This document shows, in pieces, positions 1 through 3,666 of a stretch of 35,798 nt of DNA. Both the position numbers and the translations under genes were made by a program. Position 1 is the stretch's first letter. Each line of letters starts with the position of its first letter. This DNA is from Acidobacteriota bacterium (GTDB taxonomy: Bacteria; Acidobacteriota; Terriglobia; Terriglobales; Acidobacteriaceae), in NCBI GenBank assembly GCA_028872955.1, contig JAGWNX010000035.1:1-35798 (forward strand), given 5' to 3'. The notes under the pieces are model-generated. The model saw only the letters and a program-made list of their open reading frames with translations. It did not search any database and was not told the DNA's origin.

Positions 1-1557
1 CAGGACGAAAAGGCAGAGGAACGGCACGGTGAAGTAGTTCTCCGTCGTCACCGCGTACCACACCGTCCACGCAAAGTAGCAACCGATGCCGAGCTCGATC
101 CATGGCACCAATCCCAAACGCTTGCGGTATTTCTTAGCCTGGCTCTTCTCGCCCTTGGTCTGCACGCGGTACTTGGGGGTGCGGGCAAAGGCTGACTTGA
201 CGCCGAACAGCGCCTCCAGCACGGCCTTGGCGTTGGTAATGGTCAGGCCTACGCCCAGCGCCATCAAAAACGGGACGTACAGAAAGGTCTTGTACCAGCT
301 CTTGGGATACAGCTCCTTCTGGCTGACCAGGTAGAACGTCGAGATGGAGCAGGTGCTGGCGATGAACAGCGGCATATCGATCAGAAGCATCTGGATGTAG
401 CCCTGCCAGCTGCGAATGATCATGGCCGGCATCAGCAGCACGCTCAGGATGATCATGAGCGGGTAGCTGATGTTGGCGGTCAGGTGATACCAGGCCTCCA
501 GCTTGGTGTGCCAGGGCTTGTCGCTCCGCAGCACGCGCGGCAGGATCTTTTTGCCGGTCTGGATGAGTCCCTTGGCCCAGCGTGCCTGCTGCGTCTTGAA
601 GGCCGTCATCTCAATGGGCAACTCGGCCGGGCATTCCACGTCCTGCAGGTATTTGAACTTCCAGCCCACCATCTGGGCGCGGTAGCTCAGGTCGGTGTCC
701 TCGGTCAGCGTGTCGTGCTGCCAGCCGCCCGCGCTGGCGATGGTCTCGCGGCGCCACATGCCGGCGGTTCCGTTGAAGTTGAAGAAGACCCCCGCGCGGG
801 AGCGGCCGCCGTGCTCCAGCACAAAGTGGCCGTCCAGCAGAATCGCTTCCACCTGCGTCATAAAGCTGTAGTCGCGATTCAGGTGAGTCCAGCGCGTCTG
901 CACCATGCCGATCTCCGGCTCGGCAAAGTGGTGGATCACCTGCATTACCCACTCGCGCGGCGGCACAAAGTCCGCGTCGAAGATGGCGATAAACTCGCCC
1001 TTGGCCACCTTCTGGCCAGCGTCGAGCGCACCTGCCTTGAAGCCGTGGCGGTTGCTGCGATGCAGGTAGACGATGGGCTGCGGCTCCATGCCCGCAAAGC
1101 CTGCCGCATAACGTGCGACGATGTCGCTGGCCACCTTCACCGTCTCGTCGGTGGAGTCGTCCAGCACCTGAATCTCGAAGCGGTCACGCGGGTAGTCCAG
1201 ACGGCAGCAGGCGTCGATCAGGCGATCGATGACGAACTGCTCGTTGTAGATCGGCAGCTGGATGGTGACATACGGCAGCTCCCCCTCTGGCCAGCGCATC
1301 GGCGGATTATCCCAGCGGGCGGCGTTCTTCTTGTTCTTGAAGTACAGCCACACCAGCTGATAGCGGTGCACGCCGTAGAACGCGAGAATCACCATCACAA
1401 TGAAGTAGGGAATGAGCAGCAGAACATCAAACGTGTTCCAGCGGTACAGATGCTCAAACGTGCGATCCGCATAGTGCGTTCTGATGTAGTGCGTCAGTCC
1501 CTTGGAGACGAGCAGCAGGGCCGGCAGCGATGGCAGATTGGCGACGAGGGAAGGCAG
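1..1557 (-). CDS. Membrane glycosyltransferase family 2 (cellulose synthase-like), 3' end outside window
   Basis: Processive-type GT2 that would transfer a sugar from a nucleotide donor at the inner membrane; the product cannot be told from sequence. About 519 residues are visible and the frame stays open at the left edge. The GT-A catalytic set is complete: VLDDSTDET, FDADFVPP, LTEDTDLSYRAQ and QQARWAKG, i.e. the D,D,D,QxxRW signature. A hydrophobic segment precedes the GT domain (LLLIPYFIVMVILAFYGV) and several membrane segments follow it. The start is odd: no ATG, GTG or TTG fits. I chose CTG at 1557-1555, which has GGAG seven bases upstream and gives an N-terminus of reasonable length. 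An in-frame ATG at 1680 lies inside the upstream gene and upstream of a TAGAAT box (1592-1597), so I consider it unlikely. Family call is secure; the start is not. Confidence 0.9.
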   Translation of the reverse strand, partial: MPSLVANLPSLPALLLVSKGLTHYIRTHYADRTFEHLYRWNTFDVLLLIPYFIVMVILAFYGVHRYQLVWLYFKNKKNAARWDNPPMRWPEGELPYVTIQLPIYNEQFVIDRLIDACCRLDYPRDRFEIQVLDDSTDETVKVASDIVARYAAGFAGMEPQPIVYLHRSNRHGFKAGALDAGQKVAKGEFIAIFDADFVPPREWVMQVIHHFAEPEIGMVQTRWTHLNRDYSFMTQVEAILLDGHFVLEHGGRSRAGVFFNFNGTAGMWRRETIASAGGWQHDTLTEDTDLSYRAQMVGWKFKYLQDVECPAELPIEMTAFKTQQARWAKGLIQTGKKILPRVLRSDKPWHTKLEAWYHLTANISYPLMIILSVLLMPAMIIRSWQGYIQMLLIDMPLFIASTCSISTFYLVSQKELYPKSWYKTFLYVPFLMALGVGLTITNAKAVLEALFGVKSAFARTPKYRVQTKGEKSQAKKYRKRLGLVPWIELGIGCYFAWTVWYAVTTENYFTVPFLCLFVL

Positions 1558-1648
1558 AGGTCCGCTCCAGCGTAGGGAATCGATTGCTCCGATTCTACGC
1601 GATGCCGGCGATGGCCCGGCAACCTCTTTTGCGTTGCCAGCCAGCGGG

Positions 1649-2596
1649 TTACTGCAGCAGCAGCATCCGGTAGGCACCATCGCGCTGCACCGGGCGGAAT
1701 CCAGCGTCGCGAATCACCTGGCGCAGCTGCTCCTCGGTGGCCGCGACGGCGCGATCGGCGTTCTCCGGCGGTACGGAGCCCACGTCGTTGCCGCCAAAGC
1801 GCAGCGTCATCTGAAGAATCTTCAGTCCCTGGGTCTCCAGGTCACCCGCCAGGTTGGGAATGGTGTCCAGAAACATGCGGCAGATGGCCAGCGTCTTCAG
1901 GTACTCAACAGCGGTGGTCTCCTCAAAGCCCTGGATTCCGGCACGCAGCGGCTCCACGGCGCGCGGCGTGAAGGCGGTAAAGCCGCCGGTCTCCTGCTGC
2001 AGTGCGCGCAGCCGCTCCAGGTGACGCACACGATGCTCCAGGGTCTCGCCGCCTCCAAAACGCATGCTGGCAGTGGTCAGCATGCCGGTGCGATGCGCCG
2101 CGCGGTGTACGCGAAGCCAGTCCTCGGCTGTGCGACCGTTGCGACCGGCGGCGGTTTGCACGGCGTCGTCCAGTATCTCGGCGTCCTCGCCGGCCAGCGA
2201 CTCGATACCGGCATCGCGCAGGCGCGCCAGCGTGGTCTCCAGCGTGGAGCCGCTTCGCGTGGCCAGCGTCAGCACCTCGTGTACGGAGCCTGCCTGCAGC
2301 CATAGCTCCGGGAAGCTTTGCTTGATGCCGGAGACCAGTGCGACGGCAGCGTCCAGGTCGCGGCCCTCCGCGTGCAGACCACGCAGCACGGCCCCGGTGC
2401 CGGAGCGGTCCAGGATCGCCTCGGCCTGCACGGCCCGGGCTTCGTGATCCCCCGCGCACTCCAGCAGGCCATCCACGGCGTAGCTCACCACGCCCTCCGG
2501 ATGCAGGCGCCGACGCACGGCATCAGCCTCCATCCCGACACCGATCAGATCCTCGCTCCGGAAGCACTCCAGAGCCTCATTGCTGCTGATTGCCAT
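1649..2596 (-). CDS. MqnC/CofH-family radical-SAM homologue lacking the iron-sulfur cysteines
   Basis: Protein of 315 residues clearly related to MqnC, the cyclic dehypoxanthine futalosine synthase of menaquinone synthesis. Family-like stretches include GMEADAVRRRLHPEGVVSY (about 21-39), TTASMRFGGGETLEHRV, LQQETGGFTAF, AVEYLKTLAICRMFLD, LRFGGNDVGS and the C-terminal IRDAGFRPVQRDGAYRML. The segment that in MqnC carries NxNYTNxCxxxCxFCAFYR, expected after HPEGVVSY, is missing: only Cys47 is present there and no CxxxCxxC exists. The protein is correspondingly shorter than the usual 360-380 residues. It therefore should not bind the SAM-cleaving [4Fe-4S] cluster. The frame is intact, so it looks maintained rather than decayed. 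A TAAAAT box (2603-2608) sits six bases before the ATG with no Shine-Dalgarno, suggesting a leaderless mRNA. The function is unknown. Confidence 0.8.
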   Translation of the reverse strand: MAISSNEALECFRSEDLIGVGMEADAVRRRLHPEGVVSYAVDGLLECAGDHEARAVQAEAILDRSGTGAVLRGLHAEGRDLDAAVALVSGIKQSFPELWLQAGSVHEVLTLATRSGSTLETTLARLRDAGIESLAGEDAEILDDAVQTAAGRNGRTAEDWLRVHRAAHRTGMLTTASMRFGGGETLEHRVRHLERLRALQQETGGFTAFTPRAVEPLRAGIQGFEETTAVEYLKTLAICRMFLDTIPNLAGDLETQGLKILQMTLRFGGNDVGSVPPENADRAVAATEEQLRQVIRDAGFRPVQRDGAYRMLLLQ

Positions 2597-3030: not shown

Positions 3031-3501
3031 CTACCTCACCGGCGCAGGCTGTGCCTTGCGACCGCTCCACCACCGAACCAGCAATGTCGCGCCGGTGACC
3101 AGCAGGATCGTCGCGACGATGCCCTGCGACCACAGGCAGTAGATGCACCACTTCTCAATGACGAAGGCCTCCAGATAGCTGAGCATCGCGGCAAAGAAGA
3201 AGCCGATCTGCGCCATCTCCAGCACAATCCAAAGCCGCCCGGTCAGCGCGACGATGGCGAGCAGCCCGTACCAGACGATGCCCATGGTGGCGATGGGGAT
3301 GTGGAGCTTTTTGCTGGCGTCATCCTCGTCAAACGAACGCGGCGGAAAGACGGCGAAGCGGCTGTGGTTGACCGTGCCGCAGTCGAACTTCTCGGTGACG
3401 GCGCAGGGTGGCGCCTCACCCGGAGCCTGGTTGTGCACCCGCAGCGCGAGCACGCTTACGTAGAGTCCTGCCAAGGCCAGCAATGCGATCAGATACTTCA
3501 T
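3031..3501 (-). CDS. Vitamin K epoxide reductase (VKOR) family disulfide-bond oxidoreductase
   Basis: Integral membrane enzyme of 156 residues that in bacteria reoxidises a DsbA-like thioredoxin and passes electrons to quinone, replacing DsbB. All diagnostic residues are visible: the loop cysteine pair in CAVTEKFDCG (Cys-x7-Cys), the following Ser in NHS, and the quinone-proximal CxxC in WCIYC. Four or five hydrophobic segments match the family bundle, starting with MKYLIALLALAGLYVSVLAL. No fused thioredoxin domain is present, so the DsbA partner must be encoded elsewhere. ATG 3501 was preferred over an upstream GTG at 3579 because it begins at the first membrane helix and has a TAGAAT box (3509-3514) seven bases before it. 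It is followed after five bases by the coiled-coil membrane protein. Confidence 0.9.
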   Translation of the reverse strand: MKYLIALLALAGLYVSVLALRVHNQAPGEAPPCAVTEKFDCGTVNHSRFAVFPPRSFDEDDASKKLHIPIATMGIVWYGLLAIVALTGRLWIVLEMAQIGFFFAAMLSYLEAFVIEKWCIYCLWSQGIVATILLVTGATLLVRWWSGRKAQPAPVR

Positions 3502-3508
3502 GGCTACG

Positions 3509-3514
3509 ATTCTA
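3509..3514 (-). promoter_or_regulatory. Candidate -10 box (TAGAAT) of the VKOR gene
   Basis: TAGAAT on the minus strand is seven bases upstream of the ATG at 3501, with no Shine-Dalgarno between them. This fits a leaderless transcript for the VKOR operon. Confidence 0.45.
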
Positions 3515-3666
3515 TCCCCGGGCCGGTGGTCGCGGGGGTGTCGGCAGGGTACAGCGCAATCAGGTATGCTGTTGGCCACTCGCGAGGCGCAGCCCCGGCA
3601 CCCGCCGCGCGAGCCTTACCGAGATTCGGGCCCGCGCAACCAGACCGCAGTGCAGGAGCCTCACCT

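Follow-up and report, generated by a model that had tools for sequence, protein, structure and literature searches.

A cluster-less MqnC in soil Acidobacteriaceae, probably a pseudoenzyme displaced by a related radical-SAM protein

The DNA analysed here, a stretch of 35,798 nucleotides from an Acidobacteriota bacterium of the family Acidobacteriaceae (hereafter the window), carries on its minus strand, at positions 1649 to 2596, an orthologue of MqnC that lacks the loop holding the [4Fe-4S] cluster of radical S-adenosylmethionine (SAM) enzymes. MqnC is the cyclic dehypoxanthinyl futalosine synthase of vitamin K2 (menaquinone) making, and an iron-sulfur centre is required for its chemistry. The cluster-less MqnC is a real, well-replicated feature in some soil Acidobacteriaceae. 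Comparisons among genomes suggest that the old MqnC has probably turned into a pseudoenzyme: an MqnC-like radical-SAM relative, referred to below as the third protein, would have displaced it, the cluster was lost, and the barrel was kept under selection, perhaps for a non-radical job.

The gene, its protein and its distribution

The reading frame starts with ATG and encodes 315 amino acids with zero internal stops. Its parts are the following.

1649..2596, minus strand: MqnC orthologue without the [4Fe-4S] cluster loop, 315 amino acids plus stop (open reading frame and profile matches)
2468..2596, minus strand: residues 1-43, covering the N-terminal helices and the beginning of the first strand (MAISSNEALECFRSEDLIGVGMEADAVRRRLHPEGVVSYAVDG), with strong conservation in both forms
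2432..2467, minus strand: residues 44-55, short stretch with one Cys (C47), replacing INYTN-CxxxCxxC and the loop after it
1931..2431, minus strand: residues 56-222, middle of the barrel, active-site motifs eroded (GGTGV.MQGG, PGGGAEIL)
1652..1930, minus strand: residues 223-315, CofH_C region, strongly kept (TAVEYLKTLA, LRFGGNDVGS, AGFRPVQRD), EENVV lost

The original prediction, made from the letters of the DNA, was that this frame lacks CxxxCxxC and that a stretch with a single Cys replaces the cysteine segment, and the reading frame, the profile scores and the alignment all agreed with it. The CxxxCxxC motif, by which membership of both MqnC and the Radical SAM superfamily was judged, was absent from the window protein. 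In the alignment with cysteine-bearing orthologues the segment INYTNFCTEYCTFCAFYRPLKGKLAAEGYIL was missing and the short stretch stood in its place (...VDGLLECAGDHEA...), the deletion running from INYTN through CTEYCTFC to GYIL. Three more motifs present in the cysteine forms, GGTGVLMQGGIHPDL, PGGGAEILDDEVR and MLEENVV, which the original prediction did not mention, were eroded or lost. The top NCBIfam match was MqnC (TIGR03699), with a score of 223.6 bits, roughly half of the 428.1 set as its cut-off, and four more cluster-less members scored 239-295 bits. The CofH/MqnC C-terminal region (PF19288, CofH_C) was recognised at 44.4 bits, above its gathering score of 27, and Radical_SAM (PF04055) reached 23.1 bits over residues 111-196, below its gathering score of 29.5. 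The window protein thus shares with MqnC an orthologous gene, the fold and the terminal motifs, and differs from it in the missing cluster motif, the eroded motifs and the score. Judged from its sequence, the cluster-less protein cannot hold a radical-SAM cluster in the known way.

A structure prediction, which the original prediction had proposed as a check, showed that the (beta/alpha) barrel persists in a cluster-less protein with its strands complete. The nearest solved fold was MqnE, the aminofutalosine synthase, with aminofutalosine bound (PDB 6xi9, 6xig); MqnE retains the cluster motif. The same polar residues were invariant across cluster-less lineages. These features would fit a new, non-radical catalytic activity towards a futalosine-type ligand in the remnant of the pocket (N270, D271 and His, Arg and Lys residues that are conserved). 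However, the motifs on both the SAM side and the substrate side are eroded, and in the model many of the invariant residues apparently lie on the terminal helices, and we regard such an activity as most improbable.

MqnC was searched for in the window's genome and 60 relatives, and then in the 62 genomes available for its genus (g1). It was present in 59 of these, the three without a match being 63-73% complete. By sequence, 38 of the 59 genes were cluster-less and 21 carried CTE[YH]CTFC; none of the 38 had an internal stop, and no genome of the genus had a second gene at the MqnC locus. A mis-assembly or a single decaying copy was therefore rejected. The original prediction had taken the motif in close relatives at this locus as a sign of just such a copy: the motif does occur there, yet the window copy is intact and not a lone error. 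Among 80 loci from named relatives, 11 were cluster-less (Edaphobacter lichenicola, several Granulicella sp. and strain KBS 89 among them) and 69 were cysteine forms, one assigned by a looser pattern (L110), including those of Granulicella mallensis, Terriglobus roseus and Edaphobacter modestus. The best 120 of 5429 protein matches, from isolates (Tunturiibacter, Granulicella) and metagenomes, all lacked CxxxCxxC and were 314-325 amino acids long. Many of these 120 are labelled cyclic dehypoxanthinyl futalosine synthase by the source databases, a name very probably wrong for the chemistry of cluster-less proteins. Outside the genus, states are known for the rows listed or fetched, of which 20 were fetched for trees (19 chosen cysteine forms and G343).

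A search for counterexamples covered 13 genomes of the family whose MqnC matches were weak and 3 nearly complete genomes lacking any match at 1e-39; no cluster-less gene was seen, and several of the pieces stop short of the cluster region. The weak matches were partial ones on short frames, MqnE-like ones or, in the case of G238, a cysteine form containing runs of N. A 102-amino-acid match in G026, one of the three genomes of the genus without an MqnC match, was rejected as an MqnC remnant and is not counted as a loss; it follows an assembly gap filled with N, and its sequence corresponds to the last part of a cysteine form (GWDEATS, MLEENVV). L104 was likewise rejected as a motif-less form: at L104:5951-7100, in a metagenome-assembled genome, lies a cysteine-form MqnC with one in-frame stop, possibly a sequencing error.

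Two neighbours served to compare the loci.

1..1575, minus strand: family-2 glycosyltransferase, downstream, marker of locus descent, running off the window
3031..3579, minus strand: VKOR-family gene, upstream (71.6 bits)

The VKOR family is one of quinone-linked redox proteins. Of the loci examined, all 17 cluster-less ones and 30 of the 41 cysteine ones had the glycosyltransferase downstream on the same strand; the VKOR-family gene stood upstream in 14 of the 17 and 15 of the 41, respectively. Flank lengths varied between loci. The neighbours were thus those of cysteine-bearing MqnC. Because neighbours are shared and no genome of the genus has two genes at the locus, the cluster-less and cysteine forms are states of a single orthologous gene.

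The third protein and the order of events

The window's genome also holds a separate MqnE (CVASCRLC) and two PF02621 proteins, and loss of the whole futalosine pathway was rejected on this ground. The MqnB model TIGR03664 gave matches below its cut-off only, in 24 of 41 genomes. The third protein is a family member besides MqnE that carries CVAQCDYC (CVAQCNYC in G077). Thus, the cysteine-bearing MqnC-like protein whose coexistence the original prediction had proposed to look for was found. It belongs to the same family branch as the window protein, with MqnC (TIGR03699) as its best family. It differs in keeping the full motif set, including the motifs lost from the cluster-less protein, and in being better conserved (70-100% identity within the genus).

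The third protein was found in 40 of the 62 genomes of the genus: in all 38 with a cluster-less MqnC, in one of the 21 with a cysteine form (G035) and in G004, a 63% complete genome that gave no MqnC match. Of 299 genomes sampled in the wider family, 30 had it, and 16 of these belong to other genera. Twelve of these 16 had a clear cluster-less MqnC, and the others had a very diverged copy (G124), one split in two frames (G348), a cysteine form (G285) or none (G182). Absence of the third protein was called at E 1e-70 in the genus and family surveys and at 1e-10 in 11 genomes. The p value for the co-occurrence disregards relatedness, and a count of independent pairs (5 pairs) is unable to reach 0.05. 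The two genes are sited apart in the genomes. The third protein lies about 1 kb or less from the stronger PF02621 protein in G021 (L147) and G016 (L250), and its neighbours differ at the other loci viewed. In a quick tree, one sequence of genus g80 grouped with G000 and G014 of the window's genus (SH-aLRT 94) and the remaining g80 sequences fell among those of the window's genus (85), a pattern showing the signs that horizontal transfer would give.

The family members of another family of the order (f2) were also surveyed. Among 14 genomes, 12 had one match and 2 had none, and all five matches fetched were the third protein. Since these genomes have the third protein without MqnC, it does not always depend on the old MqnC. 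MqnE was not found in the eight f2 genomes tested (G037-G043, G047), where the MqnE model had a single match per genome, scoring 200-217 bits, which is far under its cut-off of 434.55; each had two PF02621 matches (MqnA/MqnD type), and the third protein is at L142-L146. It would be unusual for a futalosine-type pathway to have just one radical-SAM enzyme of the MqnC/MqnE family. In genus g48, G247 (99% complete) gave no match to the window protein at 1e-12, in a search that also found MqnE elsewhere, and no third protein at 1e-10; in G273, of the same genus, two CofH-family genes are adjacent (C1:4818566-4821430) and MqnC was not found at the usual score.

Two genomes, G285 and G035, have the third protein together with an intact cluster motif. 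MqnC changes in G285 outnumbered those in a sister without the third protein by 30:4, 29:6 or 25:5, depending on the outgroup, and in G035 by 26:5, the ratio falling to 21:8 (p 0.024) when the outgroup was remote. The neighbour gene was not faster in these comparisons (12:9 for the first; 22:23 and 25:20 for the second). In G035, nine sites that do not vary among the other 40 cysteine forms had changed, of which six surround the cluster (N46, N49, Y54, Y61, R62, G72); G285 had five at otherwise invariant sites, with zero in the cluster loop. Other single cysteine forms had at most four, except the outgroup G053. Because MqnC, and not its neighbour, is faster than in the sister and changes at otherwise invariant sites, arrival of the third protein seems to have preceded cluster loss in these two genomes.

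From these comparisons we propose that an MqnC-like radical-SAM protein with complete family motifs was acquired, possibly by horizontal transfer, that the old MqnC then evolved faster, that the cluster loop and three further active-site motifs were lost, probably several independent times, and that the leftover barrel would have been kept by purifying selection. The third protein would now catalyse the MqnC reaction between MqnE and MqnD. Least certainly, the disarmed protein may persist because of a non-radical job already done by the original MqnC.

Selection, trees and alternative explanations

Selection on a protein without its cluster, as the original prediction had suggested, was supported by the 19 closest disjoint cluster-less pairs, 15 of which had dN/dS of 0.08-0.37; the pairs listed in a separate comparison gave 0.07-0.13. 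Disjoint cysteine pairs gave 0.00-0.19, the top value involving G285. The middle region had a higher dN than residues 1-43 in all 19 pairs, and a higher dN than the C-terminal region in 17 of them. Purifying selection that follows the loss of catalytic residues, a mark of a pseudoenzyme, was thus found, and it was weaker in distant pairs. In 300 runs of a neutral simulation of the gene, 53% of copies were free of stops at 90% identity and only 4% at 60%, frameshifts not being counted. From the dN/dS values and the simulation, most lineages keep the gene, though the constraint on it has weakened.

Several observations count against displacement followed by retention. Four of the 19 pairs, all between distant genomes in which synonymous sites are probably saturated, had dN/dS of 0.44-0.86, and the median over pairs with dS 0.1-1.2 was 0.36 for cluster-less genes (231 pairs) and 0.09 for cysteine genes (517 pairs). 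The split copy in G348, the barely recognisable one in G124 and the missing one in G182 (85% complete) point to possible ongoing loss, and the cluster-less gene may be being lost in a few lineages. The medians, these three genomes and the stop-free simulated copies at 90% identity are what would be expected if the displaced MqnC were an unneeded relic, its frame and motifs decaying slowly in GC-rich genomes with rare stops. This explanation is unlikely: dN/dS in the close pairs is far under 1, the 38 genus copies have no stop, few simulated copies survive at 60% identity, and identical polar residues are kept among cluster-less lineages.

The tree of the MqnC locus also counts against displacement with repeated loss of the cluster. 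It united all 52 cluster-less sequences at 99, on very long branches, and the 38 of the genus at 99/96, a grouping that one origin followed by transfer of the cluster-less gene to other lineages would equally give; the shared preferences F219L, S257A and M97L fit that account too. Yet the tree of the adjacent glycosyltransferase (73 rows), a gene that accompanies both states, scattered them, with at least 9 state changes, of which starred branches force 5. For the genus, the tree of rpoB DNA required 6 changes, 2 forced, and that of the rpoB protein 5, with just 1 forced, the last again a point for fewer losses. Cluster-less genes of g80 and g82 share N-terminal residues with the cysteine genes of their own genus (MGITRQQALDC in g80). 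With the third protein and MqnC apart in the genomes, moreover, two coordinated transfers would be needed each time. A single origin with transfer is therefore improbable. The cluster was probably lost several times independently, the MqnC grouping reflecting, we infer, long-branch attraction among genes freed of the same constraints. That the cluster-less form is one old monophyletic group, a question raised by the original prediction, is unlikely.

The remaining difficulties concern the third protein, whose scores of 298-316 bits stay below the MqnC cut-off of 428, so that its activity in the MqnC step is presumed, and which was not found in the cluster-less G343 (93% complete, 350 contigs). 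The near-perfect co-occurrence over several switches and the conserved terminal regions would also suit a disarmed MqnC acting as an obligate non-catalytic subunit of the third protein, the inactive half of a heteromer. This is quite unlikely. The third protein works without MqnC in the f2 genomes, G182 and G343 each appear to have one partner without the other, and the residues conserved in the cluster-less form were already conserved in the cysteine form, with only the three new preferences.

A second role for MqnC

Since the disarmed protein has been retained over several switches, a non-radical role would be older than the switch. The protein would most likely act in the futalosine pathway without catalysis, as a regulator or binding partner, a guess from the conservation of the N-terminal helices and C-terminal region. 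The candidate roles named by the original prediction were a regulatory or scaffolding partner of the true MqnC and binding of a futalosine-type ligand. It is conceivable, at somewhat less than even chances, that MqnC of Acidobacteriaceae has an unrecognised second, non-radical function, which the cluster-less forms, stripped after takeover by a transferable enzyme, isolate. As in pseudoenzymes generally, the fold outlasts the catalytic residues; the function here is predicted.

To our knowledge, no radical-SAM pseudoenzyme has been described that arose several times over through displacement by a relative. Neither this kind of repeated origin nor a cluster-less MqnC was found described in the literature searched, whose coverage left most subscription journals outside. 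One paper (PMC3914697) counts MqnA, MqnC and MqnD in five of five Acidobacteria and characterises MqnC through the Radical_SAM domain; its main text gave no match to the word cysteine.

Menaquinone pathways in Edaphobacter, Granulicella and Tunturiibacter may have been assigned from the wrong gene. Together, the repeated switches and the two part-way genomes offer a natural series of a radical-SAM enzyme becoming a pseudoenzyme, and the second role of MqnC would be testable in cultured strains.
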